Assembly (NCBI GenBank): GCA_900319005.1
Contig: ONMV01000020.1
Span: 1 to 34,870, forward strand
Direction: 5' to 3'
DNA: 34,870 bases
DNA from: an uncultured Bacteroidales bacterium
GTDB taxonomy: Bacteria; Bacteroidota; Bacteroidia; Bacteroidales; Paludibacteraceae
A program made the position numbers and the translations under genes. The notes beneath the pieces are model-generated. The model ran no database searches, was not told where the DNA came from, and worked only from the letters and a program-made list of their open reading frames with translations. Of this stretch, positions 7,281 to 28,070 are shown piece by piece (position 1 is the stretch's first letter; each line of letters starts with the position of its first letter).

Positions 7281-8180
7281 TTATAACCATCCAAGGCACG
7301 AAATGACCCCTGTAGAGAGCATCAAAACAGGCATTTGGAGGTCCAAAGCACTTCCTTCGTGCGTCCATACAAACCATAGATGCCATACCCAAATCGGCGT
7401 GACGCAAAGCACCCAGAAATGACCATAGCAAAGGAAAATCATCAGACATCCGAGCAGGAGACATGTATGATATATCTTCGCGCCCGTATATCCGAGCATA
7501 CTCGCGAGCGTGCGCTTAGCGTGTGCGCGGTCATTATTCATATCGCGTATGTTATTGAGGTTAAGAACCCCCACACAAGGCAAACCAATTGCCACACCTG
7601 CCCATATGACTTCCGGGGTCAGGTTCTGCACTTGCAGATAATAGGCTCCGAGGGTGCTGAGCAAGCCGAAGAAAAGGAAAACGCCCAAGTCTCCCAATCC
7701 CATATACCCATAACTATGTTTGCCGAGTGTGTACTTGATAGCTCCCAGGATTGCCAGAGCGCCCAGGAGAAGGAAAATGAGTGTGTTGGTGTATGGTGTA
7801 TAGTGTACGGTGTACGGTGTAGCCCAGAAAGCAACGAATACCAAAGCCGAGCCGAAAAGGATGGAGAGCATCACAAAGAGGATGATCATTCGTTTCATCT
7901 GCTGCATCGTGATCGTGCCTGCCTGCAATCCATACGCCTGTCGCCCGTGTTGGTCAGCGTCCGTACCCTTCTGCGCGTCACCAAGTTCATTACAGAGGTT
8001 ACTGAGAATCTGCAGACACAGTGTTGTCAGTACGGCGAGCACAAACACACACCATGCTTGGGAATCGTTCGCGGTGAACAGTTCATTATTCGCAGCATAA
8101 GCGAGCCCAGTTCCTAAAATAATACCTGACACGGACAGCGGCAGGGTTCGCAAACGCAAAGATTGGATATAGGGATTCAT
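7281..8180 (-). CDS. menA: 1,4-dihydroxy-2-naphthoate polyprenyltransferase (MenA)
   Basis: This integral-membrane UbiA-family prenyltransferase attaches a polyprenyl chain to 1,4-dihydroxy-2-naphthoate in menaquinone synthesis. The N-terminus (YIQSLRLRTLPLSVSGIILG) and the Mg-prenyl-diphosphate motif NELGDAQKGTDADQ (about residues 64-77) are classic, followed by the second Asp motif near NNIRDMNNDRAH. About eight to nine membrane segments are visible and the length (299) is normal. I prefer the ATG at 8180; a GTG at 8189 would add MFI. It follows the DUF486 gene by 9 bp. Odd: residues about 121-131 (TPYTVHYTPYT) are encoded by five 7-bp tandem repeats (7788-7822) sitting in a loop between two membrane helices. 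Confidence 0.93.
   Translation of the reverse strand: MNPYIQSLRLRTLPLSVSGIILGTGLAYAANNELFTANDSQAWCVFVLAVLTTLCLQILSNLCNELGDAQKGTDADQHGRQAYGLQAGTITMQQMKRMIILFVMLSILFGSALVFVAFWATPYTVHYTPYTNTLIFLLLGALAILGAIKYTLGKHSYGYMGLGDLGVFLFFGLLSTLGAYYLQVQNLTPEVIWAGVAIGLPCVGVLNLNNIRDMNNDRAHAKRTLASMLGYTGAKIYHTCLLLGCLMIFLCYGHFWVLCVTPIWVWHLWFVWTHEGSALDLQMPVLMLSTGVISCLGWL
7788..7822. repeat. 7-bp tandem array inside menA (5 units)
   Basis: Units on plus: GGTGTAT, GGTGTAT, AGTGTAC, GGTGTAC, GGTGTAG. The array is in frame on the menA strand and encodes a YTP/YTV-rich loop. Confidence 0.9.
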
Positions 8181-8189
8181 AATAAACAC

Positions 8190-8561
8190 TTATTTAAAAC
8201 CAAAGACGAAATAGACGGCCCCGATGAGGAGGAGACAGGCTACAGCATGATTCCACCGCAAAGGCATATGGAAAGCGATTGCCGAGAAAACGATAAACAC
8301 CAGCAGGGTGATTACCTCCTGAATCACCTTCAGTTGCATCAAGTTGAAAGGACCTCCGTTCTCCTCAAAACCGATACGGTTAGCCGGTACTTGCAGGCAG
8401 TACTCAAAGAACGCGATGCCCCATGACATCAGAATAACCAAGATAAGCGGTGTCGTATTGCCGATCACATGTAGTGATTGCAGTTTTAGATGTCCGTACC
8501 ACGCGAGCGTCATGAACACATTCGCTGCCAATAATAATCCTATGGTATAAAGTCCATTCAT
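8190..8561 (-). CDS. DUF486 (DMT-like) small membrane protein
   Basis: This 123-residue protein has four hydrophobic segments (about 3-22, 35-53, 76-97 and 102-120). It shows the DUF486 signature: MTLAWYGHLK near residue 20, the central SWGIAFFEYCLQVPANRIG, and FNLMQLKVIQEVITL. Members are short membrane proteins of the drug/metabolite transporter superfamily with no proven substrate. It lies directly upstream of menA (stop at 8190, menA ATG at 8180), so the two are probably co-transcribed. Whether it has a link to quinone metabolism is unknown. Confidence 0.88.
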   Translation of the reverse strand: MNGLYTIGLLLAANVFMTLAWYGHLKLQSLHVIGNTTPLILVILMSWGIAFFEYCLQVPANRIGFEENGGPFNLMQLKVIQEVITLLVFIVFSAIAFHMPLRWNHAVACLLLIGAVYFVFGFK

Positions 8562-8564
8562 TGT

Positions 8565-8596
8565 ATTTTTACATTTTTACATTTTCATATTTTATG
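8565..8596. repeat. 8-bp tandem array over the 3' end of the ttcA-like gene
   Basis: Units ATTTTTAC, ATTTTTAC, ATTTTCAT, ATTTTATG. The ttcA stop codon (8585-8587) lies inside the array; the rest fills the gap before the DUF486 gene. Confidence 0.85.
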
Positions 8597-9325
8597 GGGA
8601 AGGTAGTCCGTTTTGACATTCGACAGAGCTCCGTACATACTATCCATGGCTTCGGGGCTCATCGCTTTGATCTGTCGCAACAGTTCTTTTGCTTTCTCGC
8701 GCGAACTGACATGCTCAAATGGACAGAGAACCGTTTGTTTCTCATACCCCCGCTCGGCAGCAAGGGCAATAAGTGCCTGTTCGTCAATCAGGCACAGAGG
8801 ACGGATAATACGCAGCGGCATTTTGTCCATTTGCAACATCGGCGGCATGGTAGCGAACGTACCCTGATAAATTAGGTTCATTAGCATAGTCTCGATGAGG
8901 TCGTCCCGATGATGCCCGAAAGCAATCTTATTGCATCCTATCTCCTGCGCTACATTGAAAAGCGTCTTCCTCCTGTACCACGAACAAAGGAAACAGGGAT
9001 TCGCCTCCTTCGCTCTTTCATTTTTTAATTCTTTCACTCCTTCATTCCCTATCTCCACATCCTTCACCATCAGCGGCACTCCCGCCGCTTCGCAGAAACG
9101 CTCCAGATAACTGATATCCGAGTGATAATCCCGCTCTTTGACACGCACATGCAATGCCGTAACACGGAAACGGGGTTTGTAGATCTTCGCCCGCGCCCCT
9201 AACAACTCCGTCAGCGCCAAGGAGTCTTTCCCGCCGCTCAAGCCCACTAATATATGGTCGCCGTCCTCAATGAGACCATAATCCGCGCAGGCCTTATGAA
9301 ACAATCTAACTATCTTTGTATTCAT
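8585..9325 (-). CDS. ttcA: TtcA-family tRNA 2-thiocytidine biosynthesis protein
   Basis: This 246-residue PP-loop ATPase has the ATP-binding SGGKDSLAL at residues 30-38, the cysteine pair CFLC at 111-114 and a third cysteine at 201 (TVLCPFEH). These are the three cysteines that hold the iron-sulfur cluster in TtcA-type enzymes, which thiolate cytidine 32 of certain tRNAs. GHHRDDLIETMLMNLIYQG and IIRPL also fit. It starts at the ATG at 9325, just after the promoter at 9334-9365. Odd: residues about 92-104 (GNEGVKELKNERA) just before the cysteine pair are encoded by an 8-bp degenerate tandem array. The TtcA assignment against other TtcA/TtuA relatives rests on the cysteine pattern only. Confidence 0.85.
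   Translation of the reverse strand: MNTKIVRLFHKACADYGLIEDGDHILVGLSGGKDSLALTELLGARAKIYKPRFRVTALHVRVKERDYHSDISYLERFCEAAGVPLMVKDVEIGNEGVKELKNERAKEANPCFLCSWYRRKTLFNVAQEIGCNKIAFGHHRDDLIETMLMNLIYQGTFATMPPMLQMDKMPLRIIRPLCLIDEQALIALAAERGYEKQTVLCPFEHVSSREKAKELLRQIKAMSPEAMDSMYGALSNVKTDYLPHKI
9013..9052. repeat. 8-bp tandem array inside the ttcA-like gene (5 units)
   Basis: Units on plus: CTCTTTCA, TTTTTTAA, TTCTTTCA, CTCCTTCA, TTCCCTAT. On the coding strand this is a GGAGTGAAAGA-type repeat, the same kind of sequence found between the two permease genes (12536-12559). Confidence 0.75.
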
Positions 9326-9333
9326 TCAGCCGA

Positions 9334-9365
9334 CAAAATTACTGCTTTTTTACGACATACGCAAA
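9334..9365 (-). promoter_or_regulatory. Promoter of the ttcA-like gene
   Basis: Minus strand: TTTG (9365-9362), 20 bp, TAATTTTG (9341-9334), nine bases before the ATG. The extended -33 is TTTGCGTATGT. Confidence 0.85.
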
Positions 9366-9399
9366 TTTTTGCGTTTTTTTGTGGATATTTTGTCTTTTA

Positions 9400-9431
9400 T
9401 TTGCGTATATCAGAAATTTGCAGTAATTTTG
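9400..9431 (+). promoter_or_regulatory. Promoter of the secreted propeller-like protein gene
   Basis: TTTG (9400-9403), 20 bp, TAATTTTG (9424-9431); extended -33 TTTGCGTATAT. Divergent from the ttcA promoter, with 34 bp between the two -33 boxes. Confidence 0.85.
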
Positions 9432-9441
9432 CCTTCGCAAA

Positions 9442-10506
9442 ATGAAAAACATCCCTCATATGAAAAAGAAAATGAGTATTCTGACCATCGGATTAGTAAT
9501 ATCCCTTGGCGTTTGTGCCGCCGGAATCAATTATAACGGCACGAACCTGACGCTAAATAATGAATTCACCCGTAGCCAATGCGGTACCGCTTACAAGAGT
9601 GTGATGCCAGAGATAAGCGGTCTGGCTTGTTCGCGCACTACACCGGGATACCTTTGGGCACACGGCGATGAGAACACAGGCAGCAACAAAAAGATCGTAG
9701 CCATCAAGCCGGACGGCACGCTCGCCATGACCGTCAAAATCACCGGAGATCCCGGACGCGACGACTGGGAAGATATCGCCACCGGTGTCTATAACAACAA
9801 GAACTATGTTTTCATTGGCGCTTTCGGGGATAATGATCTCAAATTCAAAGATGCTTATTACATCTATTATTTCGAAGAACCGGCCATCACGTCCGGCACC
9901 AAGGAGATAGCCGTCAATTATATCCGTTTCGGTTATCCGGATAACAAAGCGCATAACACTGAGACGCTCCTTTACGATAATATTGAGCAGGTCTTCTATA
10001 TCGCTGATAAAGTGAAAGATGGCATTTGTACGCTCTATAGTTTGCCCTTCCGCACAAATTACGGCACAAACGTGCAGACGGTGACCAAAGTGACCGAATT
10101 GGGCAATGGTACGAAATTCAATTTCCTAACCGCCGGAGACATCACACCGGATGGTCATTGGATGGCTATCAAGAGTAAGAAATTCGTGTTGCTATGGGAG
10201 CGTAACGGCTCCGAGAGCCTCAGCGAAACCGTCAAGAGGACTCCTGTGCAGATTGCTGCATACTCTGAGGAGACCCAAGGCGAATCCCTGGCATGGCTGG
10301 ATGCCACGACGTTCTACACCACCAGTGACGCCAAGAATGACGATAAGATTTACAAATACGTTCGTTCCATCCCGACCGCGGTAGAACAGACCCCTTCTAC
10401 CGAAAAAAAGGTCAAGAAAGTGATGGTCAACGGCCAAGTCCTTATCTCACGGGACGGCACGTACTACGATTTACTTGGAGGAAAGCATGATCGTCATCAC
10501 CTCTGA
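9442..10506 (+). CDS. Secreted beta-propeller-like protein with Bacteroidales sorting tail
   Basis: A signal peptide is seen at MKKKMSILTIGLVISLGVCAAG. The ATG at 9442 would leave a leader of only a few bases, so the in-frame ATG at 9460 is also plausible. The body has propeller-like strands: EISGLACSRTTPGYLWAHGDE near the start, IVAIKPDGTLAMTVKI, DWEDIATG, FIGAFGDND, TLLYDNIEQVFYIADK. This resembles esterase-like or SdiA-regulated propellers, but I cannot assign an activity. The C-terminus KVMVNGQVLISRDGTYYDLLG matches the short tail seen on Bacteroidales secreted proteins (compare KVLINGQLFILRGEKMYDV in the 28072-33489 protein). The last residues GKHDRHHL are unlike that tail; a one-base shift would give LLGRKA and a stop at 10488-10490. 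The 3' end overlaps the convergent GH53 gene by 36 bp. Confidence 0.75.
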   Translation: MKNIPHMKKKMSILTIGLVISLGVCAAGINYNGTNLTLNNEFTRSQCGTAYKSVMPEISGLACSRTTPGYLWAHGDENTGSNKKIVAIKPDGTLAMTVKITGDPGRDDWEDIATGVYNNKNYVFIGAFGDNDLKFKDAYYIYYFEEPAITSGTKEIAVNYIRFGYPDNKAHNTETLLYDNIEQVFYIADKVKDGICTLYSLPFRTNYGTNVQTVTKVTELGNGTKFNFLTAGDITPDGHWMAIKSKKFVLLWERNGSESLSETVKRTPVQIAAYSEETQGESLAWLDATTFYTTSDAKNDDKIYKYVRSIPTAVEQTPSTEKKVKKVMVNGQVLISRDGTYYDLLGGKHDRHHL

Positions 10507-11535
10507 TGGTTTCCCTTCGGGCGTGAAAGCACCCATATCGTAACTACCCCATCCCAAAGGGATGTATTCCGACGGCCGCCAACCGCCGTACACTTCGGGT
10601 TCCCAATAGAAAACACCCGCGCAGGAATCAATCGCAGTGATGCGGCGGATAAAATCCTCCATCACAACAGGCGAGAGAGTATCGTTGGCAAACATTCCCA
10701 CCTCGGCAATCATCACCGGGCAATGCCAATCATGAATAAGACGCTTGATATTCTCTTCAGCTAACTCATTCATTTCCAGCCAACTCTTTCCTCCATTCCA
10801 TGCACTCATCATCGGGTAATGGCTCAGACCGATCATATCCCATTTGCCGCCATATGCCTGCATCGACTCCCAGAACCAATCGCGGCGTTCGTACGCATTA
10901 TCTACATGTACAATGACCGTAATATCAGGGAAAGCCTCCTTGGCAGCCTTGTACCCCATCGCCGTGAAACCCGCATAATGCGCCCATCCCTCATCCGTTA
11001 ACTCATTCACTTTCCCCATCGGCCAAAGCATGCCGTTCGGCGTCTCGTTGCCTATTTGCACCCATTCGGGTCGGATACCCTCCTCTTTGAGCGCATAGAG
11101 CACGTCCAGCGTGTGTTCGCGTACTGCCTCAAGCATCGTGAAGTAATCATAGTTCTGCCATGCCGCAGGGATAGTTTGATGGCTTGGGTCGGCAAAGAAA
11201 TCCGAATAATGGATATCGATCATGATACGCTGACCTGCCTTGGCTGCCCGCTTCGCCAGATAAAGCATATCCTCTTTGTTACTCCACCCGGTGCTATGGT
11301 TCACCCATACACGCAGCCGTACGGCATTCATCCCCATCCCGCGCAGCAACTCAATACAGTCCGAAGGCTGACTGCCGACAACTGACGGCTCATAAAACTT
11401 CACGCCATCATGTTCCATCTCACTGAGCCAACTCAGGTCAGCCCCTTTTGCCCATGCCCCTCTCGGGCTGTCCGTCTTGTGATAACACCCCGTTAGCACT
11501 ACCGCTACGCAGATACAAAGAAGCACTTTTTTCAT
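10471..11535 (-). CDS. Arabinogalactan endo-beta-1,4-galactanase, GH53 lipoprotein
   Basis: This 355-residue protein has a lipoprotein signal (KKVLLCICVAVVLTGC, Cys17) and the GH53 fold of clan GH-A. Characteristic stretches are KGADLSWLSEME, GMNAVRLRVWV, IMIDIHYSDFFADP and WVQIGNETPNGMLWP with the presumed acid/base Glu164. The presumed nucleophile is Glu278 in MIAEVGM, followed by FYWEPE. GH53 enzymes cut beta-1,4-galactan side chains of pectin. As a lipoprotein it probably sits on the outer membrane or in the periplasm. No SusC/SusD pair or other glycanase is nearby, so it is an isolated degradation gene. I chose the ATG at 11535 (ATG 11547 is possible); the open frame upstream to 11739 runs through the promoter and is not coding. 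Confidence 0.93.
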   Translation of the reverse strand: MKKVLLCICVAVVLTGCYHKTDSPRGAWAKGADLSWLSEMEHDGVKFYEPSVVGSQPSDCIELLRGMGMNAVRLRVWVNHSTGWSNKEDMLYLAKRAAKAGQRIMIDIHYSDFFADPSHQTIPAAWQNYDYFTMLEAVREHTLDVLYALKEEGIRPEWVQIGNETPNGMLWPMGKVNELTDEGWAHYAGFTAMGYKAAKEAFPDITVIVHVDNAYERRDWFWESMQAYGGKWDMIGLSHYPMMSAWNGGKSWLEMNELAEENIKRLIHDWHCPVMIAEVGMFANDTLSPVVMEDFIRRITAIDSCAGVFYWEPEVYGGWRPSEYIPLGWGSYDMGAFTPEGKPSEVMTIMLSSK

Positions 11536-11557
11536 ACTATCATCCATTGTTTGGGCG

Positions 11558-11589
11558 CAAAGATACAACAAATTTTGCAAATATGCAAG
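11558..11589 (-). promoter_or_regulatory. Promoter of the GH53 gene
   Basis: Minus strand: CTTG (11589-11586), 20 bp, TATCTTTG (11565-11558). The extended -33 is TTGCATATT. Confidence 0.8.
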
Positions 11590-11626
11590 CCTAAATAAAA
11601 AAAATATAGGAAAAATGCGCGCGCGC

Positions 11627-11657
11627 TTGCATATATGATTTTTTTTTTGTACCTTTG
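11627..11657 (+). promoter_or_regulatory. Promoter of the first ABC permease gene
   Basis: TTG (11627-11629), 20 bp, TACCTTTG (11650-11657); extended -33 TTGCATATAT. It is 20 bp upstream of the ATG at 11678. Divergent from the GH53 promoter. Confidence 0.85.
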
Positions 11658-11677
11658 CACGCTGTTTTTGAAAATAT

Positions 11678-12532
11678 ATGCAACAAGAGGATACACATTG
11701 GGATTTGACCATCACGCCAAAGGATCGCTTGCTGACCATCGATTGGGGTGAGTTATGGCGCTATCGGGATATGTTTGTGCTGTTTGTAGAGCGCGCTTTC
11801 CGCGTAGCTTACAAGCAGACGATTTTAGGTCCGCTATGGTTCATCATCACTCCCGTGCTGAGTGTGATTGTGTACGTGACGGTATTTGGCGGCATCGCAA
11901 ACATACCGACGGATGGTGTGCCGCCAATCCTGTTCTACTTGCTCGGCATATCCGTTTGGGGCTATTTCTCAAGTTGCCTGAGCGCAACCTCTAATTCATT
12001 CGTTAGCAATGCGGATATATTCGGAAAAGTCTATTTTCCGCGTATTATTATGCCGCTGGTGGCGGTCACAACGAACATGCTGTCGTTTGCCATTCAGTTA
12101 GCTATCTTCACTGTCTTTTATATCTATTATGCCGTTACCGGAACGGACCTGACCATTCATTGGCAGATTTTGCTGTTCCCCTTGTTGATTGTGCTGCTGG
12201 CACTGATGGCGGTGGGCTTCGGAATGATTTTCTCGTCAATGACTACCAAATACAGAGATTTGCAGATTATGCTGGCGAAAATCATCTCCCTTTGGGTATA
12301 TATAACGCCGGTCATTTATCCGCTGAGCATGGTAACGAACGAGAAACTGCATATGGCCATGAGTCTGAATCCCGTGACGCCGGTGATGGAAGCAATCAAG
12401 TATTCGTTGCTCGGTCAGGGTCAGTTCAGTTGGCTATGGTTGGCATATAGCGCCGCATTCACGGCGGTGTTGTTGATATTCGGACTTATGCTCTTCAATA
12501 AGGTACAAAAAAGCTTTATGGATACCGTATAA
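11678..12532 (+). CDS. ABC-2 type polysaccharide-export permease, copy 1
   Basis: This is a 284-residue membrane protein of the Wzm/TagG class. It has an N-terminal cytoplasmic part (WGELWRYRDMFVLFVERAFRVAYKQTILGPLWF) and then six membrane segments. Family marks are YLLGISVWGYFSSCL, FGKVYFPRIIMPL, FSSMTTKYRDLQ and LNPVTPVMEAIKY. Members pair with an ATPase (Wzt/TagH) to export lipid-linked polysaccharide or O-antigen across the inner membrane. It is followed after 19 bp by a paralogue with the same motifs in the same order. No ATPase gene is present in the window, so either a distant one serves both or they form a heterodimer with it. Substrate unknown. Confidence 0.87.
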   Translation: MQQEDTHWDLTITPKDRLLTIDWGELWRYRDMFVLFVERAFRVAYKQTILGPLWFIITPVLSVIVYVTVFGGIANIPTDGVPPILFYLLGISVWGYFSSCLSATSNSFVSNADIFGKVYFPRIIMPLVAVTTNMLSFAIQLAIFTVFYIYYAVTGTDLTIHWQILLFPLLIVLLALMAVGFGMIFSSMTTKYRDLQIMLAKIISLWVYITPVIYPLSMVTNEKLHMAMSLNPVTPVMEAIKYSLLGQGQFSWLWLAYSAAFTAVLLIFGLMLFNKVQKSFMDTV

Positions 12533-12535
12533 GGA

Positions 12536-12559
12536 GTGAAAGAGTGAAAGAGTGAAAGA
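12536..12559 (+). repeat. Three perfect 8-bp repeats at the permease junction
   Basis: GTGAAAGA occurs three times in a row, spanning the gap between the two permease genes. The last GTG (12552) is the likely start of the second gene, and the upstream units supply AGGAG/AAGAG purine-rich sequence. Confidence 0.85.
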
Positions 12560-13409
12560 AGAAAAAGATACATATTGGACAACGGAGATCTCTCCGACTA
12601 CTTTTGCAAAGGGTTTGGGACTGAAAGAACTCTGGCAGAAGAAATACCTCATCTGGTTGTTTATCAAACGGGATATTACCGTACAATACAAGCAGACCAT
12701 TTTCGGCATGGGGTGGTATTTCATCTCTCCGCTATTCACGATGTTCATGTATATCGTGGTGTTCGGTCGTATAGCCGGCATCCCGACCGATGATATCCCT
12801 CAGCCTGTCTTCTACCTGAGCGGTATCTGTCTTTGGGAGTATTTCTCCACCTGTCTGACGGAGGCGGCAGGCACCTTCCAGACCAACGCAAGTCTGTTCG
12901 GAAAAGTCTATTTCCCCCGTTTGGTCATGCCGGTATCCAAAGTGATATCCAAACTCTTCCGTTTTACATTGCAGTTAGGCACATTCATCATCGTCTATCT
13001 GATCTTTGTCTGGAAAGGAGTCCATCTCCGTCCGAACGCATACCTATTACTCTTCCCTGTGCTAATCTTCATGATTCAATGTCTGGCTTTGGGGTTGGGG
13101 CTGATCATCTCATCGTTGACCACCAAATACCGTGACCTAATCAATTTCTTCGGAGTCTTCGTATCCCTATGGATGTACGCGACGCCAATCGTTTATCCGC
13201 TGAGTTATGTAACAAACCCGACCTTGCATATGATCATGCTATTCAACCCCATGACCGCTATCATCGAGTCCTTCAAATACGGAGCATACGGAGCCGGAGA
13301 GTTCTCATGGACATCACTCGGATACAGCGCAATCATCATCATCGTATTGCTCTTTATCGGCATCGCGATGTTTAATAGGAAACAGAAATATTTTATTGAC
13401 ACAATATAA
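12552..13409 (+). CDS. ABC-2 type polysaccharide-export permease, copy 2
   Basis: This 285-residue paralogue of the preceding gene shows the same landmarks: VQYKQTIFGMGWYFISPL, YLSGICLWEYFSTCL, FGKVYFPRLVMPV, SSLTTKYRDLINF and FNPMTAIIESFKYG. It starts at a GTG (12552) within a small tandem repeat; no ATG lies near enough. The stop codon shares its last A with the ATG of ddl (13409), so it is translationally linked to a peptidoglycan-precursor gene. Two different permeases in a row suggest a heterodimeric channel or two exporters sharing one ATPase. Both end in the same way (KSFMDTV, KYFIDTI), which points to an old tandem duplication. Confidence 0.87.
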   Translation: MKEEKDTYWTTEISPTTFAKGLGLKELWQKKYLIWLFIKRDITVQYKQTIFGMGWYFISPLFTMFMYIVVFGRIAGIPTDDIPQPVFYLSGICLWEYFSTCLTEAAGTFQTNASLFGKVYFPRLVMPVSKVISKLFRFTLQLGTFIIVYLIFVWKGVHLRPNAYLLLFPVLIFMIQCLALGLGLIISSLTTKYRDLINFFGVFVSLWMYATPIVYPLSYVTNPTLHMIMLFNPMTAIIESFKYGAYGAGEFSWTSLGYSAIIIIVLLFIGIAMFNRKQKYFIDTI

Positions 13410-14377: not shown

Positions 14378-14500
14378 TGTACGAAGGACAAATGTACCAT
14401 GTACGAAGGATTTACGAAGGTGTCTAAGGACGAAGGTCGTTAAATCGTACATAAACTAAATCGTACATAAATCGTACATCGTACATCTTTAAATCTTACA
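14378..14500. repeat. 11-bp degenerate repeat arrays in inverted orientation
   Basis: The left half has units near TGTACGAAGGA (14378-14388, 14400-14410, with variants between and after). The right half has units near AAATCGTACAT (from about 14442 to 14500). The core TGTACGA of the left is the reverse complement of TCGTACA of the right, so the two halves could pair. This fills the gap between ddl and the polyprenyl synthase; no gene and no clear promoter is seen in it. Confidence 0.85.
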
Positions 14501-14504
14501 TAGA

Positions 14505-15458: not shown

Positions 15459-15489
15459 AAATAGTAAATGACTAAATAGTAAATAGTGT
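15459..15489. repeat. 7/8-bp degenerate array upstream of the next gene
   Basis: AAATAGT units alternate with AAATGACT over about 30 bp and end directly at the ATG of the following gene (15491). Confidence 0.7.
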
Positions 15490-21427: not shown

Positions 21428-21462
21428 AAACGCACATAAAAAGCAAAAAAAATACGAAAAAA

Positions 21463-21494: not shown

Positions 21495-21551
21495 CAGTCC
21501 ATTTTGTGTATAAACCCGCCTTGTGAAAGGCCTAAAAAATAATTTAAGACA

Positions 21552-22045: not shown

Positions 22046-23246
22046 AATAGCCTGGCGTTATCTTTTCTCCAAGAAAGGGCATAATGCCATCAATATCGTT
22101 TCCGGTATTAGTGCGGCTGCAGTAATGGTTGTTACGGCGGCGATGATTTGTGTGCTGAGTGTGATGAACGGTTTCGGCGCACTCGTGGAGCGTATGTTCT
22201 CCGAGTTCGATCCCGTTCTTATGGTTGTTCCTGCCGAGGGGCAGATGCTGCGCACCGACACGATGCCTATCGCTTCTTTATACGCGCGCGAGGACATCGA
22301 GGCTATCTCTCTCCAATTGGAGCAGACAGCTCTCATCCGGTACAAAGACCATCAAGTGCCGGCGCGCGTATTAGGTGTGGATAGTCTTTTCACCCGCACC
22401 GCGCATATTGACTCTATCATCACCGATGGTTTCTATTCGGTTTGGGACGGTGCTTTCGACCGCACGGTACTCGGGCGTGGACTGGCGGCGCAGATAGGCA
22501 TGAACGCACATTTCACGGGCGCGCTGCATCTCTATGCACCCGAGCGCACCAAGCGCATTAATATGTTGCGGCCAGACCAATCATTGCGGCATGAGCATGC
22601 TTTCATCGCCGGTACGTTTGCGGTGAACCAAATGGAATATGACGACCAACTCCTGCTCGTCTCCCTTCCTCTTGCGCGCCGACTCTTTGACTACGACTCC
22701 TGTAGCTGCACCGCCCTGCGGATCCAACCAAAAGAAGGCATAAAAATCTCCTATTTCAAATCTCAAATCTCAAATGCCCTCGGCGCGGGCTATCGCGTTT
22801 TGGACCGCTATGAGCAGCAAGCGGATTTCTTCCGCATTCTCAGGATTGAGAAGCTACTGACGGTGCTACTGTTGGTTTTCATCCTTCTCATTGCCAGTTT
22901 CAATATCATCGGCTCACTCTCGATGCTGATAATCGACAAACGCGAGGATATACGTATCCTTTCACATTTAGGCGCGGACGAACGCACTATTCGCCGCATC
23001 TTCCTGCTTGAAGGATGGTTTATATCTTTCCTTGGCGCCATAGGAGGACTGATTATTGGTGTCCTTTTATGTCTCGGACAGCAACACTACGGATGGCTCT
23101 CATTGGGCTCCGGAAACGAATATATTATCTCCGCGTACCCCGTGCAGGTACAGGTGCCGGATATTATAACGGTCGGGCTCGTTGTGATTGCTTTGGGCAT
23201 AGCCGCAGCCTGGTATCCGACCCGAAAATTGAGAATTGAAAGTTGA
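22026..23246 (+). CDS. FtsX/LolC-like ABC transporter permease
   Basis: This 406-residue protein has the LolC/LolE/MacB-type plan. An N-terminal membrane helix after FLENKIAWRYLFSKKGHNAINIVS is followed by a large periplasmic domain (about 45-260). Three C-terminal membrane helices carry the FtsX core (LTVLLLVFILLIASFNIIGSLSML, DKREDIRILSHLGAD, RRIFLLEGWFISFLGAIGGL, YPTRKLR). Such permeases with an ATPase release lipoproteins from the inner membrane or move other substrates; the ATPase is not in the window. Odd: KSQISNA in the periplasmic part is encoded by a 7-bp tandem array, and the last codons lie in another array. The ATG at 22026 is preferred to the TTG three bases earlier. Confidence 0.88.
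   Translation: MNFLENKIAWRYLFSKKGHNAINIVSGISAAAVMVVTAAMICVLSVMNGFGALVERMFSEFDPVLMVVPAEGQMLRTDTMPIASLYAREDIEAISLQLEQTALIRYKDHQVPARVLGVDSLFTRTAHIDSIITDGFYSVWDGAFDRTVLGRGLAAQIGMNAHFTGALHLYAPERTKRINMLRPDQSLRHEHAFIAGTFAVNQMEYDDQLLLVSLPLARRLFDYDSCSCTALRIQPKEGIKISYFKSQISNALGAGYRVLDRYEQQADFFRILRIEKLLTVLLLVFILLIASFNIIGSLSMLIIDKREDIRILSHLGADERTIRRIFLLEGWFISFLGAIGGLIIGVLLCLGQQHYGWLSLGSGNEYIISAYPVQVQVPDIITVGLVVIALGIAAAWYPTRKLRIES
22757..22777 (+). repeat. 7-bp tandem array inside the FtsX-like gene
   Basis: CAAATCT, CAAATCT, CAAATGC, preceded by a related TATTTC; in frame within the periplasmic domain. Confidence 0.75.
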
Positions 23247-23256
23247 AAGTTATGAA
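23225..23256 (+). repeat. 8-bp tandem array over a stop/start junction
   Basis: AAAATTGA, GAATTGAA, AGTTGAAA, GTTATGAA. It contains the stop of the FtsX-like gene (23244-23246) and the ATG of the lipoprotein gene (23252). Confidence 0.8.
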
Positions 23257-23797
23257 AAATCATTATCTCATATTAGCTGCAATAGCGCTCGTCACGATGG
23301 CATGCCGCCCCGTCAGTTCCGGTTCATCCCGCGGCAGTATCCCCCGCGAGTATCACACGGCGTATATACAATCATACGGCCGGTGCTACGACTCCGTACC
23401 CTATAATGTTGTCTCGCTCGACCTCTATTCCGACAAACTCTCGCTGGATGACAGCGCCAATGTGATGACAGGTACCGGTTATAATCTCTATCTCTCGGAT
23501 ATCTTCATCGCCGGTTCAACCCTTGAGCCGGGCACCTATCGTTCTTCCGAATCCGCAGAACCCTTTACCTTTCTTCCCGGACGCGACTTCGAGGGCACGC
23601 CTAACGGGCTGTACCTGCTCTATGTTGAGGAAAACAAACTGCAATCCATCCAACTGCTGGACTCGGGCACACTCGTTGTGAAGGATACCACGAATAATCT
23701 CCTTGACCTTCAGTTTACACTCTATTTCCGCAATTCCTACGGAGGACGCGCCACCTATAGAACGCATTTCCAAGGCGAATTGCAAGAGAAGCAATGA
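23252..23797 (+). CDS. Small lipoprotein of unknown function
   Basis: This 181-residue protein has a lipoprotein signal (NHYLILAAIALVTMAC). The mature part is beta-rich (NVVSLDLYSDKLSLDD, GYNLYLSDIFIAGSTLEPGTYRSS, LDLQFTLYFRNSYGG), like the small outer-membrane lipoproteins common in Bacteroidales. I recognise no named domain. The ATG at 23252 gives a normal signal; the TTG at 23243 would add three residues. Its stop overlaps the xerD start (ATGA). Confidence 0.75.
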   Translation: MKNHYLILAAIALVTMACRPVSSGSSRGSIPREYHTAYIQSYGRCYDSVPYNVVSLDLYSDKLSLDDSANVMTGTGYNLYLSDIFIAGSTLEPGTYRSSESAEPFTFLPGRDFEGTPNGLYLLYVEENKLQSIQLLDSGTLVVKDTTNNLLDLQFTLYFRNSYGGRATYRTHFQGELQEKQ

Positions 23798-24717
23798 CTC
23801 GAGCCGCCAACACCGATACGGAACTGTTGCGCGAATATCATACATGGCTTCGACTCGAACGCGGGTATTCGTCCAATACGATCGAGGGCTACGAAATGGA
23901 CCTCGACAAACTGCGTACGTTCTGCGAGGAGCATCAATTAGACCCCGTCCATCTGGATTTTGACGCATTGCAGGAGTTTGTCTTTGAGCAATTCAAAGAC
24001 ATCCGCTCGGAAGCTACGCAAGCACGCATTCTCGCCGGTATTCACTCATGGTACCGCTTTCTTCTTTATAAGAATTATATAGAGCAGGATCCTTCCGAAT
24101 TGCTGGAAGGTCCGCGTAAATCCAAACATCTGCCTACGGTGCTGTCGTTGGAGGAGATCAACCGGATGATGGCGGCGATTGATCTGAGCAGTAATGAGGG
24201 TCATCGCAATCGGGCGATGATGGAGATGCTCTACGGTAGCGGACTGCGCGTCAGCGAACTGGTCGGGCTGCGTCTTAGCCAGATTTATCTCAATGAACAT
24301 TATATGCTTATTCAGGGGAAAGGGTCCAAACAACGCCTCGTTCCTCTCTCGCCGGTAGCGGAAGAATGGTTCGGATACTGGATGCAGGACCGCGCCACAT
24401 GGCCTCTCAAACCCGAATCAAAAGATATCGCATTTGTTAACCGATACGGTCGTCCGCTCACTCGCGCGATGGTCTTTACGATCGTTCGCCGCTTGTGCGC
24501 CGAAGCGGGCATCACCAAGACCGTCTCGCCACACACCCTCCGCCATTCGTTCGCCACACACTTGCTGCAAAACGGTGCTGATTTACGGATCATACAGCAA
24601 CTGCTCGGGCACGAAGATCTCGCCACCACCGAGATATATACACATGTTGATGTGCAGGATCTACGAAAAGCCATTCTTCAATGCCACCCGGCGAATAAAA
24701 TGAAAGGTGAAAAATGA
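23794..24717 (+). CDS. xerD: Site-specific tyrosine recombinase XerD
   Basis: This 307-residue recombinase has a SAM-like N-terminal core-binding domain (to about 110) and a catalytic domain with all active residues: Arg152 (GSGLRVSE), Lys176 (GKGSK), His247 and Arg250 (HTLRHSF), His273 (LLGHED) and Tyr282 (EIYTH). The length and the lack of extra domains fit the housekeeping Xer that resolves chromosome dimers at dif. It lies inside an operon of core genes, not at the edge of an island, so I do not read it as an element integrase. It overlaps both neighbours by 4 bp (ATGA). Confidence 0.93.
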   Translation: MTRAANTDTELLREYHTWLRLERGYSSNTIEGYEMDLDKLRTFCEEHQLDPVHLDFDALQEFVFEQFKDIRSEATQARILAGIHSWYRFLLYKNYIEQDPSELLEGPRKSKHLPTVLSLEEINRMMAAIDLSSNEGHRNRAMMEMLYGSGLRVSELVGLRLSQIYLNEHYMLIQGKGSKQRLVPLSPVAEEWFGYWMQDRATWPLKPESKDIAFVNRYGRPLTRAMVFTIVRRLCAEAGITKTVSPHTLRHSFATHLLQNGADLRIIQQLLGHEDLATTEIYTHVDVQDLRKAILQCHPANKMKGEK

Positions 24718-24721
24718 AAGG
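24701..24721 (+). repeat. 7-bp tandem array at the xerD end
   Basis: TGAAAGG, TGAAAAA, TGAAAGG; contains the xerD stop and abuts the next start. It is in inverted orientation to the array at 24761-24795. Confidence 0.75.
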
Positions 24722-27122
24722 AAGATGGGCGCATAGGATCATGTGGAAATTGACTCTCCTTTCAATTTTCATTTTTCAATTTTCAATTCTCAAGGCGGTC
24801 GAGACCATCGTCGTCGGTGAGGTGGTCAACGAGGCGACAGGCGAGCCTATTCCCAATGTGAATATTCATTTCCGAGGCACGAAGATTGGCACGACCACCG
24901 ATGAGACCGGTTCATACGTCCTGCGCGTGGACATGAAATCGAAGGCGCAACTTGATTTCTCAGCCATCGGTTATTATTCCCAGCGCTATGAGGTCGAGCC
25001 GGGCGCAATGGCGGGTCTCCAAGTGACGCTCAAAGAGCGGGCGGCGACGATCACAGAAGTAGTGGTGTCGCCTACCGAGAACCCCGCGCTGGCTATCATC
25101 CGCCAAGTGCGGGAACACAGGGCGGAGAACGACCGCACCCTCAAACAGGGATCGGAAGATATGATTCGCGAGCAATCGCTCTTTGTCTCGCATATCAACA
25201 AACGTACGCTTCGCCGCGCGCTATGGCGCAGCCTGCGCAGCGGTATGATTGAGCAGGAGGACTCCACCTATGTTATCCCTCTTTACCACGAGAAACAGTC
25301 CTTTCGGGTAAGCGGCAATGAAATGATTGCCACTAGCGAACCCGAGACACGCGCAATGATACTCAGCGAGACGGAATACTCGATGTATCTCAGCAAAGAA
25401 GGCAACCTCAATTTCTACTCCAGTACGGTTCCTATCATGAACCATTCTTTCCTCTCGCCTTTGTCTGCCAGCGGCAACTTGTACTACCGCTATTATATTG
25501 ACGAATTAACCGACATCATGCACCGCGGTGAGAAAGACCGAAAGCTGGTACGTGTAGCCTTCCGCACGCGTAACCCTTTTTACACCACGTTCAACGGCGA
25601 CATGCTCATTGACACGGCCACCTATGCCGTGCGCGCTATTAATGCATACGTACCATCCGAGGTGGCGGTCAACTACGTGAATAATATTAATATCAAACAA
25701 GTGCTGTCGCCCGACGGCGCGTTAGCCGAAGAACATATCAGCGTCATCCTGGATGTAGCTATCCAAACCAAAGAGGTACGCTTCCCGACAATATTAATCA
25801 CCAATTCGCTCTATAACCAACATGCCGATCTCACGGTCAACGACAGTCTTTTGGCAGCGGAGCCTGCGAAGGGTCAAAGCGCGTTGAGGTCCATTCCGCT
25901 GGTGGGAGAGAAGATGAATGCGTATTTCAATAAGGTCGATTCCCTCCCCGTCATCCGTACCGCCAAATGGATAGCGGACATCGTGACCACCGGATATATA
26001 CCTACCGGCACGCCGATTGATATAGGACATATAGAGGAACTCCTGCAAGTCAATAGTCACGAGGGAGTCCATATGGGTCTTCCCTTCCGCACAAATGAGA
26101 AATTCTCCAAGAATATATCCCTTGAGGTCGCATTAGGTTATGGTTTCAAGGATCGTCGGTTCAAGGGTTTAGGGCGGGCTTCTTTCAACCTGCCTACCTT
26201 ACGAAAAAACATCTTACAGATAGAGTACAATGATCATTATGTTTGGTCTGAGGTGGATGATTTCGATCGTCTGATGCGTGAGAACTCCATCGGTATGGGT
26301 AATTTTGACTTCACTTCCTATGCGTTTGAGGCGTTACATCTCGATTCGTTCGTCAGCACCGTCACCCATCAGAAACAATTACAAGTCCACTGGTTTGCCG
26401 ATTGGACGAACAAAGTGGAGACGCACGCGTATTTACGGGTAGGATGGCAAGACGGCTATTCCTATCAACTCTTATCTACGATTGGCCGTATCAGTTGGGG
26501 TGAACAGAAGCATCAGGGTTTCTTCATGCGCCGCTATACCTACTCCACCATCTACCCGGTCCTTTTCCTCGGTTTGGAAACCGGTCACTGGTCATATAGC
26601 GAACTACCGGAAAATTTCCCTGCCAATAGTGCTGTTTATGCGCATGTACGCGCCATGCTCACCCAGCATGCCAACCTCGGAATGGCGGGCAAACTGACAT
26701 ACGTGCTACGCGTAGGAGCTGTCTTCGGACATGTACCAAGCACCCTCACGCGTCAGGCGAACAGAAACCAGGGCTACGCCTATGACCCCTATCGTATGAC
26801 TTTGTCCTTTAATAGCAATTTCTTTCCGGATAAGTACTTGGCGTTACAAGCGGAATGGAATGGTCAAGGCATACTCTTCAATCTCATTCCCGGCATCCGT
26901 TGGTTGCATCTGCGCGAACTGGTAGAGACCAAGATCGCCTACGGATATATCTCTCCTCGGTATCGCTACCGTTTGGAAGAAGGCAAATCGCCGCATGAGT
27001 TCTATTCAGAAATAGGAATCGGCTTAGGCAATCTGCTTCGTATCTGCGATCTCTATTCCGTTTGGTCGATCACCCCAGAAGTGCATTGGGCGCTCCGCTT
27101 CCGTCTCCATATAGGTCTCTAA
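24714..27122 (+). CDS. Outer-membrane protein, carboxypeptidase-regulatory-like plus DUF5686
   Basis: This 802-residue protein has a signal peptide, a CarboxypepD_reg-like domain (about 30-115: VVGEVVNEATGEPIPNVNIHFRG, GTTTDETGSYVLRV, FSAIGYYSQRYEV) and then DUF5686. Long stretches of alternating polar/aromatic residues to the end (HWALRFRLHIGL) suggest a C-terminal outer-membrane barrel. The role is unknown; members are widespread in Bacteroidota. The ATG at 24714 overlaps xerD, but the ATG at 24741 (MWKLTLL) is a better signal start. Odd: the hydrophobic core of the signal (SIFIFQFSIL) is encoded by a 7-bp tandem array. Last gene of the run, followed by a terminator. Confidence 0.85.
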   Translation: MKGRWAHRIMWKLTLLSIFIFQFSILKAVETIVVGEVVNEATGEPIPNVNIHFRGTKIGTTTDETGSYVLRVDMKSKAQLDFSAIGYYSQRYEVEPGAMAGLQVTLKERAATITEVVVSPTENPALAIIRQVREHRAENDRTLKQGSEDMIREQSLFVSHINKRTLRRALWRSLRSGMIEQEDSTYVIPLYHEKQSFRVSGNEMIATSEPETRAMILSETEYSMYLSKEGNLNFYSSTVPIMNHSFLSPLSASGNLYYRYYIDELTDIMHRGEKDRKLVRVAFRTRNPFYTTFNGDMLIDTATYAVRAINAYVPSEVAVNYVNNINIKQVLSPDGALAEEHISVILDVAIQTKEVRFPTILITNSLYNQHADLTVNDSLLAAEPAKGQSALRSIPLVGEKMNAYFNKVDSLPVIRTAKWIADIVTTGYIPTGTPIDIGHIEELLQVNSHEGVHMGLPFRTNEKFSKNISLEVALGYGFKDRRFKGLGRASFNLPTLRKNILQIEYNDHYVWSEVDDFDRLMRENSIGMGNFDFTSYAFEALHLDSFVSTVTHQKQLQVHWFADWTNKVETHAYLRVGWQDGYSYQLLSTIGRISWGEQKHQGFFMRRYTYSTIYPVLFLGLETGHWSYSELPENFPANSAVYAHVRAMLTQHANLGMAGKLTYVLRVGAVFGHVPSTLTRQANRNQGYAYDPYRMTLSFNSNFFPDKYLALQAEWNGQGILFNLIPGIRWLHLRELVETKIAYGYISPRYRYRLEEGKSPHEFYSEIGIGLGNLLRICDLYSVWSITPEVHWALRFRLHIGL
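24761..24795 (+). repeat. 7-bp tandem array encoding a signal-peptide core
   Basis: TTCAATT, TTCATTT, TTCAATT, TTCAATT, CTCAAGG. In frame this reads SIFIFQFSILKA. Confidence 0.85.
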
Positions 27123-27125
27123 CCA

Positions 27126-27153
27126 AACAACCCCGCCGGTTGGCAGGGTTGTT
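27126..27153 (+). terminator. Strong hairpin after the DUF5686 gene
   Basis: AACAACCC (27126-27133) pairs with GGGTTGTT (27146-27153); the inner GCC/GGC closes a GGTT loop. It starts 4 bp after the stop. There is no long U-tract, but it is the best transcript end for the rpmH run. Confidence 0.7.
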
Positions 27154-27192
27154 CAGTTCATTTCGCCGCAAAGGCGTATGGATTATGGGACA

Positions 27193-27318
27193 TTAATCGC
27201 CTCCTTCACCCGGCAATGGATCGCCAACTGGCAAGCCTGCAGGACTTGCATCTAAAAGCATCGATACTGCTTGTACTTCGGTAGTTTCTACCTCCGGTTG
27301 ATTATAAATCTTTTTCAT
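27193..27318 (-). CDS. Small 41-residue peptide of Bacteroidales type
   Basis: The frame MKKIYNQPEVETTEVQAVSM followed by LLDASPAGLPVGDPLPGEGGD fills most of the gap between two larger genes. It resembles a class of very short Bacteroidales proteins that open with MKKxYxxPxxExxxxx and end in a Gly/Pro/Asp-rich tail; I recall the type but no function. It is not a normal signal peptide. It lies downstream of the four-helix-bundle gene on the same strand, separated by an 8-bp repeat array. The DNA shows a purine-rich gap upstream but no TAnnTTTG promoter. Coding is supported by its pattern, not by length. Confidence 0.65.
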   Translation of the reverse strand: MKKIYNQPEVETTEVQAVSMLLDASPAGLPVGDPLPGEGGD

Positions 27319-27346
27319 AATGATTGATATTTTTGCGTTGTTAATA

Positions 27347-27394
27347 TCTAGTTTTCTAGTGGACTAGTAGACTAGTTGACTAGTTGACTATCAA
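27347..27394. repeat. 8-bp CTAG-rich array, left of the four-helix-bundle gene
   Basis: Units TCTAGTTT, TCTAGTGG, ACTAGTAG, ACTAGTTG, ACTAGTTG, ACTATCAA. Confidence 0.9.
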
Positions 27395-27402
27395 AATCCT
27401 CT

Positions 27403-27951
27403 CTAATTCTTGCGAGCGGCAAACATCCGCTCTTTCACTCCGCCTTCGGCTAAGAACTCCGCTTCCATCTTCTGCAACAACGTCATCAGCCCTTTGTCTG
27501 CCTGATGAATCAGCGTCAGTGCTGTGTTGCAGAATGTCTCTTTATCCCATTTGTCATAGTAGGGTGCGTAGTCCTCTACCTCATTATGCGTCGCGCAGAA
27601 CTGTAGCATCTTGCCAAATCGTTCATGGTCACGCGACCATAATTGGAGGCGGTTGGAGCGCAACTGGTCTTCGTAATCCTCGCGTAACTCTTGCAGACTT
27701 CCGCGAGCCACGTTCACCAAATGCAATCCTGTATCAGTAGATGTCATCTTGTCCTCTAAACCCTCAACGATATTCTGCTTGCCGGATCGCGCCGCTTGCT
27801 GCATCTGGCCGTACGTCCTGTCCGAAGACTGGAGGTACTTGTCTATATAGTAGATCGTCATATCGTATAGAATAACGCTCTTCTTATAGCAGACCAAACT
27901 GCGATACCCTCCGGGATGAATCAGAAACCCGCCAGGATTTAAAGTAGTCAT
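27403..27951 (-). CDS. Four-helix-bundle suffix-domain protein
   Basis: This 182-residue helical protein has the family core GGYRSLVCYKKSVILYDMTIYYIDKYL, SSDRTYGQMQQAARSGKQNIVEG (about residues 15-65), and a longer C-terminal helical part with DYEDQLRSNRLQLW. It belongs to the four-helix-bundle group related to the proteins encoded by 23S rRNA intervening sequences and to Avd of diversity-generating retroelements; Bacteroidota carry many stand-alone copies. No reverse transcriptase is near. The gene is flanked on both sides by the same CTAG-rich 8-bp arrays, as if it were one unit. Function unknown. Confidence 0.82.
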   Translation of the reverse strand: MTTLNPGGFLIHPGGYRSLVCYKKSVILYDMTIYYIDKYLQSSDRTYGQMQQAARSGKQNIVEGLEDKMTSTDTGLHLVNVARGSLQELREDYEDQLRSNRLQLWSRDHERFGKMLQFCATHNEVEDYAPYYDKWDKETFCNTALTLIHQADKGLMTLLQKMEAEFLAEGGVKERMFAARKN

Positions 27952-27967
27952 CTTTGATGTGATTTTG

Positions 27968-28015
27968 TAGTTTACCAGTTTACTGGTCTTCTAGTTGACT
28001 AGTCTAGTAGTTGAC
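27968..28015. repeat. 8-bp CTAG-rich array, right of the four-helix-bundle gene
   Basis: Units TAGTTTAC, CAGTTTAC, TGGTCTTC, TAGTTGAC, TAGTCTAG, TAGTTGAC. Confidence 0.88.
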
Positions 28016-28034
28016 TTGCCTGCGATTTCTCGCG

Positions 28035-28070
28035 TTAGTTTTCTAGTAGACTAGTTGACTAGCAGACTAT
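28035..28070. repeat. Second 8-bp CTAG-rich array, at the 3' end of the surface gene
   Basis: TTAGTTTTCTAGTAGACTAG and onward to GACTAT at 28070. It matches the left array (27347-27391) with one or two units fewer, in the same orientation. It ends 1 bp before the stop of the surface-protein gene. Confidence 0.85.

Follow-up and report, generated by a model that had tools for sequence, protein, structure and literature searches.

Many-sequence heptamer-class tandem repeats, dense in the genome of a gut Paludibacteraceae bacterium and variable between related species

Short, degenerate tandem arrays in the genome of an uncultured gut bacterium of the Paludibacteraceae (genome G000) are real and far beyond chance, and they represent a dense, sequence-varied form of a known kind of repeat. 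We regard them as probably heptanucleotide-class long simple-sequence repeats, of unusual density and sequence variety, which grew by slippage, were partly copied from one another and were kept where neutral. Most likely, they are copying by-products settling where they are least harmful, rather than a regulatory device. The analysis started from a 34,870-nucleotide stretch of this genome, here called the window, and extended to larger samples of the genome, to a related species (G071) and to other Bacteroidota.

Arrays in the window

The preliminary description counted 13 arrays in the window. Tandem Repeats Finder (TRF), run at score 30, places a row over all 13; a stricter lag score (match +1, mismatch -2, pass at 12 or more) is passed by nine only, the other four scoring 8 to 11. 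The arrays, with the methods that detect them, are as follows.

7788..7822, period-7 array of GTGTACG, in frame within a putative UbiA-like ORF (named by eye; 7281-8180, minus strand); TRF 7783-7821, lag score 19
8565..8596, period-8 array (ATTTTTAC) spanning the end of a ttcA-like gene and the start of the next gene; TRF and lag score
9013..9052, degenerate array of TTTCA type, in frame in a loop of the ttcA-like gene; TRF 9005-9047, weak; lag score only 8
12536..12559, period-8 array of GAGTGAAA that separates two ABC permease genes and runs into the GTG start codon of the second; TRF 12534-12559, 100%
14378..14500, 127-bp hairpin element built from tandem GTACGA units, lying between ddl and a prenyl synthase gene
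15459..15489, array of AAATAGT/AAATGAC units (7+8) between the prenyl synthase gene and the next gene; TRF 15459-15487, lag score 11
22757..22777, period-7 array of TCAAATC, in frame within a lolC/E-like gene; TRF and lag score
23225..23256, period-7 array (AATTGAG/AAGTTGA) over the stop of the lolC/E-like gene and the next start; TRF and lag score
24701..24721, weak period-7 array (TGAAAGG) at the end of a tyrosine recombinase (xerC/D-like) gene and the next start; TRF 24697-24719, lag score 11
24761..24795, period-7 array (TTTCAAT), in frame near the start of an 802-aa ORF; TRF and lag score
27347..27394, period-8 array (CTAGTTGA) adjoining a small ORF (27403-27861, minus strand); TRF and lag score
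27968..28015, period-8/16 array with the CTAGTNGA unit, as at 27347-27394, on the opposite side of the small ORF; TRF and lag score
28035..28070, array of CTAGTAGA ending at the stop of a 1805-aa ORF (28072-33489, minus strand); TRF 28043-28069, lag score 10

Some features of the first account change on closer inspection. The stretch at 14378-14500, first taken for a simple array, is one copy of a ~130-bp hairpin element built of tandem units. Nor does each array have a unit sequence of its own: all 13 stretches match elsewhere in 859 kb of the genome, with 2-53 matches each at a lenient limit (E<=0.05), although both matches of 7788-7822 sit at one place. The regions 1-7.7 kb and 28.1-34.9 kb, described as free of arrays, contain weak ones at 6610-6629 (period 8), 7258-7279 (period 11) and 32921-32946 (period 12), among others; two very large ORFs lie in these regions, which leaves few gene junctions there.

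Markov shuffles do not reproduce the array numbers or periods; had they done so, the preliminary description would have been refuted on its own terms. TRF finds 25 non-overlapping arrays in the window, 13 of them of period 7-8, against means of 5.4 and 1.5 (maxima 12 and 6) in 100 third-order Markov shuffles. By the lag score there are four arrays of period 7 and four of period 8, where 100 shuffles give an expectation of 0.0 for each. On a larger scale, 325 kb of real sequence holds 106 arrays, and three Markov-4 sequences of 325 kb hold 4 in all.

Periods, unit sequences and positions

In the genome sample, arrays with periods of 7, 8 and 11, or sums of these, greatly exceed chance expectation. 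The 290 arrays in 859 kb of G000 include 90 of period 7, 29 of period 8, 30 of period 11, 14 of period 14, 25 of period 15 and 5 of period 6, with none of periods 2-5; the 280 arrays in 800 kb of G071 include 103 of period 7, 32 of period 8, 1 of period 6 and 2 of period 2. Period 7 is thus the commonest in both. The array sequences form a limited shared vocabulary and are not independent: in 1.5 Mb of loci from the genus, the period-7 units fall into 78 types, against 136 expected for random heptamers of like composition (loci L001-L004, L024-L053 and L154 excluded, identical arrays counted once).

Arrays concentrate between genes, at 1.44 per non-coding kb and 0.16 per coding kb in 460 kb. 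In the same 460 kb, counts inside and outside genes are 24/25 for period 7, 2/0 for period 6, 2/7 for period 9, 4/1 for period 12, 9/6 for period 15 and 3/2 for period 18. When only periods 7, 8, 11, 14-16 and 22 are counted, 115 of 180 arrays in gaps between co-directional genes (G000 and G071 together) start at most 10 bp past the upstream stop, and 132 arrays lie inside genes in 1.66 Mb, 83 of them of period 7 and many in frame. Genes were called by a home-made Markov ORF picker, not Prodigal, so gene ends near arrays are uncertain.

Turnover between related species

Comparison of orthologous sites shows that related species have gained and lost arrays, exchanged one for another and changed their length in whole units. 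For G000 and G071 (mean identity of aligned pieces 84%), 243 and 230 clusters were left once those at most 260 bp from a stretch end and periods above 25 had been dropped, and 90 and 89 of these had orthologous flanks. Nor are the arrays just carried along unaltered in relatives, the other result that would have refuted the first account, although 56 of 179 rows have the same length in both species. Among 26 rows with a clean indel (some events counted from both sides), 13 indels are of 7, 8, 11, 14, 15, 21 or 22 bp, and loci L102 and L110 differ by one 7-bp unit. Inside genes, the length difference is divisible by 3 in 66 of 72 rows (in 40 of 46 when unchanged rows are set aside); outside genes, this holds for 58 of 107 rows.

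Single sites in the window illustrate this variation. Relative to the window, G071 is 25 bp longer at 8565-8596, 15 bp shorter at the permease junction (12536-12559), 9 bp shorter at 23225-23256 and equal in length at 24761-24795. In protein alignment, the loop at 7788-7822 is shorter in 9 of the 11 relatives displayed, and the remaining two have other inserts; the loop of the ttcA-like gene at 9013-9052 likewise bears inserts that differ among relatives (alignment with 28 relatives).

Gene gaps were compared after periods above 24 and gaps over 300 bp had been dropped, leaving 413 gaps, 153 with an orthologous gap. A change in length of at least 7 bp is seen in 9 of the 17 gaps where both species have an array, in 30 of the 31 where only one has (a class that is changed almost by definition) and in 25 of 105 array-free gaps (17 of 63 among those above 15 bp). 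At the ddl/prenyl synthase junction, scoring failed for 3 of 80 relatives. Of 78 loci, 39 carry an array there (lag score at least 8), 26 have overlapping or touching genes and 13 have another spacer. The unit sequence at this junction varies from species to species, and on the tree the array label needs 21 changes, 13 of them forced by well-supported (starred) branches. Whole arrays of 30-130 bp appear between close sisters (window/L124, L058/L057, L068/L072 and L086/L079), and intermediates were not seen among them.

The 127-bp hairpin element and copying

The hairpin element at 14378-14500 is absent from the sister locus (L124, in G071), where the genes overlap by 4 bp; no target-site duplication was visible by eye in this filled/empty pair. 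The 127-bp element folds with a z of -3.3, a value equalled by 1 of 200 shuffles. It has 27 matches in the genome, with copies at 99% over 86 bp and 90% over 130 bp, its ends are similar in five aligned full copies, and matches, mostly partial, occur in 16 of 40 other genomes of the genus.

Some arrays, at least, duplicate others in the genome. Across 222 array clusters, the best match within the genome beats the best G071 match in 115, loses in 91 and ties in 16 (p=0.002), with periods above 24 and of 1, 2, 3, 6, 9, 12, 18 and 21 dropped, along with orthologous-looking G071 matches. A long copy (score at least 80) was found elsewhere in the G000 sample for only 17 of the 222 clusters, and in the G071 sample for 8, so copying explains few arrays directly.

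Distribution across Bacteroidota

The bias towards periods 7-8 is wide in the phylum. Of the genomes scanned, 140 of 247 from Bacteroidales and 124 of 296 from Bacteroidota contain AATTNNN arrays, and a period-6 control pattern is nearly absent (6 of 20 genomes, at most 2 matches each). The backward-read control TTAANNN is also enriched in some genomes (11 matches in G000, 215 in G204) and is not a null. The AATT pattern at period 8 has 0 matches in G000, whose period-8 arrays use other units. Sister genomes are patchy, ranging from 0 to 485 AATTNNN matches, and other genera of the order (g33, g2) each include both array-rich and array-free genomes. The earlier suggestion of a single process favouring period 7-8 is borne out as far as the bias goes, which is real, widespread in the phylum and survives shuffles and relatives; it is tempered by the shared vocabulary and by some arrays being copies.

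Relation to known repeats

Prokaryotic long simple sequence repeats with a heptanucleotide excess go back to Mrazek et al. 2007, as cited in PMC4679880 and PMC4692102. As reported there, the class has units of 5-11 nt, with period 7 commonest, in scattered taxa, and a 7-nt polymerase contact is offered as the reason for the excess; PMC4692102 dates the recognition of heptamer over-representation in bacteria to 2007, and PMC4679880 cites units divisible by 3 as the likeliest in genes. The arrays of the window and genome share with this class tandem units of 5-11 nt beyond chance, period 7 at the top and unit-wise change. They differ in density (290 arrays in 859 kb), in many unit sequences per genome and degenerate copies, in extra peaks at 8, 11 and sums, and in the many period-7 arrays in frame in genes.

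TAACTGA direct repeats are described from marine Beggiatoaceae, some Cyanobacteria and five Bacteroidetes (PMC4679880). By that description, they too are heptamers adjoining start codons, lying over stop codons and inserted in ORFs, with 7-nt indels between strains and relatives that have no repeat at one junction. The TAACTGA system has one unit sequence (PMC4679880), whereas the arrays here have many; membership in that family was rejected, as two successive TAACTGA units (TAACTGATAACTGA) occur 0 times in 859 kb of the genome. The GGGNATC repeats of Xanthomonas and Nostoc are likewise heptamers, mostly intergenic, that vary in length at conserved sites (PMC4692102). They are described as G-rich and G-quadruplex-forming (PMC4692102), whereas the arrays here are AT-rich and do not include GGGNATC, both judged among 40 of the 78 period-7 unit types. 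In the open-licence literature, we met no account of such repeats from Paludibacteraceae, no Bacteroidota class with many unit sequences, nor a tested cause of the heptamer excess beyond the polymerase-contact idea.

The STRR sequences of heterocystous cyanobacteria are tandem heptamers spread through the genome, a likeness shared by the arrays here, but they belong to another phylum and use other units. Rickettsia palindromic elements and MITEs are small and sit in gene gaps or, in frame, within genes; the arrays resemble them in size and placement, and the 127-bp element, like them, forms a hairpin. Unlike these elements, the arrays have tandem structure, no common sequence and no visible target-site duplication. 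Those inside genes have many sequences instead of the one conserved in-frame palindrome of the Rickettsia elements, and the 127-bp element has the hairpin structure of a MITE but, by eye in its one filled/empty pair, no target-site duplication.

Origin of the arrays

Slippage of heptanucleotide-class repeats is probably the best explanation. New units would arise through strand slippage during DNA copying. Loops of 7-8 bases or more would escape mismatch repair, which would normally remove slips of 1-4 bases, so short periods would not accumulate despite MutS. Template switching between arrays may copy whole segments to new places, and insertions would survive only where neutral, that is, between genes, in leaders and in protein loops. 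Bacteroidota are not known to need a Shine-Dalgarno sequence, and a regulatory function would be unnecessary in this account. We infer slippage together with template switching from sequence comparison; against slippage steps, arrays of 30-130 bp arising whole exceed single steps. Slippage that prefers 7 nt has been put forward for bacteria before (Mrazek 2007, as cited in PMC4679880 and PMC4692102), so there is no need to invoke a special new process.

The mismatch repair gene mutS1 is full length in G000 and G071 and over the cut-off in 24 of 27 genomes. The three below it all belong to the array-rich group: G299 and G167 have partial genes, and G271 (86% complete) has a weak match only. Lost mismatch repair, as in microsatellite instability, was rejected as the cause, mutS1 being present with these exceptions. 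The lower limit of 7 rather than 5 is not accounted for by mismatch repair.

An unlikely alternative is the insertion of array segments at gene junctions by an enzyme or mobile system dedicated to this, transposon-like or by template jumping, with slippage secondary. The similar ends and spread of the ~130-bp hairpin, the whole-array insertions in four sister pairs and the patchy spread between sister genomes are consistent with such a system. The sister pairs inspected, however, show by eye neither a target-site duplication nor a constant terminal repeat, and most clusters have no long copy. A Y1 transposase (PF01797) is found in 13 of 14 array-bearing genomes, the miss being G299 (65% complete) and G071 counting as array-bearing by its period spectrum, but also in 7 of 10 without an AATTNNN match; a Y1/REP-associated transposase was rejected as the cause, as it does not separate array-rich from array-free genomes. 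Rather doubtful, too, is an undescribed Bacteroidota process that writes 7/8-base-stepped DNA into permissive sites and copies it, through a template-jumping polymerase or inserter with a natural step of 7-8 nt. If true, it would explain whole arrays between near-identical sisters, many units under one period, hairpin arrays with tandem arms and patchy presence in sister genomes.

We consider it improbable that the arrays work in transcripts as spacers or as binding sites for regulators, acting through translation uncoupling, three-frame stops or leader control; roles of this kind have been proposed for the TAACTGA repeats of Beggiatoaceae (PMC4679880). The preference for sites just past a stop would suit this role, a period of 7 or 8 yields stops in all frames, and stop codons are more frequent in sense than antisense in arrays near an upstream stop (77 v 17) and in those no further than 25 bp from a start codon (19 v 4). 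Yet, although junction arrays as a whole show a bias of 110 v 35, those lying over 10 bp past the stop and over 25 bp short of the start show 14 v 14, and selection for stop-codon spacers was set aside on this ground; one and the same junction can hold an array, another spacer or a 4-bp gene overlap in different related species, units differ from species to species, and arrays also occur inside genes. For the bias near both gene ends we favour a gene-caller cause, in which stop-free arrays are absorbed into the neighbouring ORF, with selection as the alternative.

Phase variation at contingency loci, in which fast length change switches genes on and off, is very improbable: unit numbers do change between species and arrays do lie within or over gene ends, but the 56 rows of equal length at 84% identity, the mostly frame-keeping changes inside genes and the mostly housekeeping-like character of the window genes that could be named (10 ORFs searched) stand against it. 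Chance, low complexity or assembly artefact deserves almost no credence, for although the weakest array (9013-9052) is barely periodic, this reading is already refuted by the Markov shuffles and by arrays in numerous genomes assembled independently of one another, one of which (G512) has a 5.5-Mb contig.

Significance

Within one genus, 39% of a single genome already holds 290 arrays, and dozens of sister genomes and exact empty and filled sites are at hand. With such an array-rich genus, these site pairs and genera that mix array-rich and array-free genomes, the cause of the 7-base step is directly testable. The findings caution against reading such arrays as regulatory sites or genes. For the organisms that carry them, the arrays are a strong source of change in gene spacing, turning overlapping genes into spaced ones, and a source of new peptide loops in proteins.

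Period bias from the window to the phylum

The window corresponds to contig 40 in a genome of 2.18 Mb and 41 contigs. Judged by the ddl protein, its nearest named relatives are MAGs of Bacteroidales and Paludibacteraceae, most of them from ruminant guts according to their titles. Thirteen short tandem arrays had been proposed in the window by inspection, and Tandem Repeats Finder (TRF) rows overlap every one of them (13/13), with 4 of the 13 reported stretches weak by lag score (match +1, mismatch -2). Their excess over chance was borne out, as 100 shuffles analyzed with TRF gave a mean of 1.5 and a maximum of 6 period-7/8 arrays, compared with 13 in the real window. By lag score, four arrays of period 7 and four of period 8 are present in the window, and none in 100 third-order Markov sequences.

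In 859 kb of the window’s genome (G000), 290 arrays were found, led by period 7 (90), followed by periods 11 (30), 8 (29) and 15 (25), many of the last looking by eye like 7+8; period 6 is rare, and no arrays of periods 2-5 occur in this sample. A sister genome (G071) has a much similar spectrum (280 arrays in 800 kb, 103 of period 7), and period 7 accounts for 165 of 479 arrays in 1.5 Mb of loci from the genus. In whole-genome counts, arrays matching the period-7 pattern AATTNNN are present in 140 of 247 genomes from Bacteroidales and 124 of 296 sampled across the phylum, at 0-485 matches per genome and with a patchy distribution even inside one genus. The reversed pattern TTAANNN is likewise enriched in some genomes. 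At period 6, the AATT pattern occurs in 6 of 20 genomes with at most two matches each, and at period 8 in 14 of 20 with up to 102, G000 having none at period 8. Stretches of two other Bacteroidota genomes, G265 and G512, hold like arrays with different units, G265 additionally showing periods 9, 10, 20 and 22. Comparing small stretches, array density is 0.23 per kb in array-rich genomes (122 kb) versus 0.09 in array-free ones (134 kb), with period 7 restricted to the former. The bias toward periods 7 and 8 is real and wide.

Three genomes sharing the genus code g33 (G204, G299 and G090) have 9, 485 and 0 AATTNNN matches and 215, 86 and 0 TTAANNN matches, respectively.

Unit sequences and dispersed elements

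The preliminary description gave each array a unit sequence of its own, with some sharing, but the units are not private: all 13 stretches match other places in the genome sample, at 2-53 matches each (E<=0.05). Period-7 units in the genus fall into 78 types among 165 arrays, against 136 expected. For 222 array clusters, the best match within the genome was better than that in G071 in 115 cases, worse in 91 and equal in 16 (p=0.002), and a long copy was found within the own genome for 17 clusters and in G071 for 8. Part of the unit vocabulary thus spreads within a lineage, though no more than a small part of it shows up as recent copies.

An 11-base array of the AGGTGGATGTC type lies beside a GGATGACATCC palindrome at two places in the genome, L009:4955-5024 and L006:16571-16727, 87% alike over 100 bp, and, unlike the 7-mers, looks like a defined element. 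A second dispersed 11-base family, AGTGGGTGATT, has long similar copies at five places:

L013:4909-4952, AGTGGGTGATT family copy
L020:11032-11143, AGTGGGTGATT family copy
L136:9193-9232, AGTGGGTGATT family copy
L219:5926-5962, AGTGGGTGATT family copy
L224:17784-17854, AGTGGGTGATT family copy

Within window positions 27347-28070, a small ORF (27403-27861, minus strand) has CTAGTNGA 8-base arrays on either side, and the 1805-aa ORF at 28072-33489 has no NCBIfam match.

The ddl junction and its hairpin element

Positions 14378-14500, in the gap that separates ddl from the prenyl synthase gene, had been listed as an array; the tandem units stand, but the stretch is a composite element rather than a simple array. 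This gap consists of a single copy of a 127-bp hairpin element made of GTACGA units (predicted fold z -3.3). The genome contains 27 matches to the element, one of them 90% identical over 130 bp and another 99% over 86 bp, and 16 of 40 other genus genomes also have matches, mostly partial. Each of the five near-full copies seen lies between one gene’s stop and the next gene’s start, and partial copies lie in leaders and also in frame inside a gene. At this junction, tandem units also form inverted arms in the related loci L069, L084 and L091, the last being weakest (z -2.05).

Scoring succeeded for the window plus 77 of the 80 relatives, giving 78 loci, two of which belong to one MAG; the junction holds an array in 39 (lag score at least 8), overlapping or touching genes in 26 and other spacers in 13. 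On a quick protein tree with two long branches, the array label requires 21 changes, 13 of them forced by starred branches. Whole insertions lie directly 5' of the downstream ATG in the sister pairs window/L124 (its G071 counterpart), L058/L057, L068/L072, L086/L079 and L070/L066, and the L102 and L110 junctions differ by one unit.

At the same junction, L069, L070 and L106 have a common core, ACAAAGCGTCCTAG...AGCCCTTTGT, with imperfect inverted ends and flanking heptamer arrays; the three carriers are not sisters on the tree. GC-rich inserts occupy the same permissive sites as arrays, namely the ddl junction of L114 and L116, where they are palindromic (CCCCTNNAGGGG type, by eye), and the ttcA loop of L171. 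The ddl on contig L080 shares 81% identity with the window’s Paludibacteraceae-like ddl, and the contig’s label, uncultured Ruminococcus, is likely a binning error. The MAG JAFSQV01 contributes both L060 and L068, contigs with different ddl junctions, and is likely a mixed bin.

Turnover between sister genomes

Array rows with orthologous flanks in G000 and G071 number 179, where one locus can be counted from both sides, and comprise 56 of the same length, 26 with one clean indel and 97 complex cases. Gap length shifts by at least 7 bp in 30 of 31 gaps with an array in one species, 9 of 17 with an array in both and 25 of 105 without an array (17 of 63 of those longer than 15 bp). Some sites hold a different array in each species, and the ttcA loop, an in-frame array site, has varied inserts among 28 relatives.

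Arrays inside genes

Of the arrays in 460 kb, 60 were assigned to genes and 107 to sequence outside them, at densities of 0.16 and 1.44 per kb. The in-gene length difference is divisible by three for 66 of the 72 rows, and for 40 when the 46 changed rows are taken alone, and stop codons per base of in-gene arrays are fewer in sense (0.036) than in antisense (0.084). Together, the lower density, the multiples of three and the fewer sense stops form the pattern expected from selection on random inserts. In arrays of gene gaps, sense versus antisense stop codons number 77 and 17 near stops, 19 and 4 near starts, and 14 and 14 away from both; since the bias is absent away from gene ends, we read it as ascertainment, not function.

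Relation to known repeats and proposed origin

The arrays belong with long simple-sequence repeats showing heptamer excess. As described in PMC4679880, the closest likeness is to the TAACTGA repeats, which lie over stops, before starts and as ORF inserts, with empty junctions in relatives. Unlike those repeats as portrayed there, many units coexist here, and tandem TAACTGA is absent from the 859-kb sample, which together set the arrays apart as a variant within the known heptamer-repeat class. As cited in PMC4679880 and PMC4692102, polymerase contact length was offered in 2007 as the reason for a 7-base preference.

Lost mismatch repair is excluded as the cause for G000 and G071, since mismatch repair is present in both. 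The most likely origin is slippage and template switching as the source, with selection as the filter. Slippage and template switching would provide both whole-unit changes and copies. Mismatch repair has an upper limit on loop size, and loops of at least 7 bases would escape it; selection would then retain inserts that fall in gene gaps, leader regions or protein loops.
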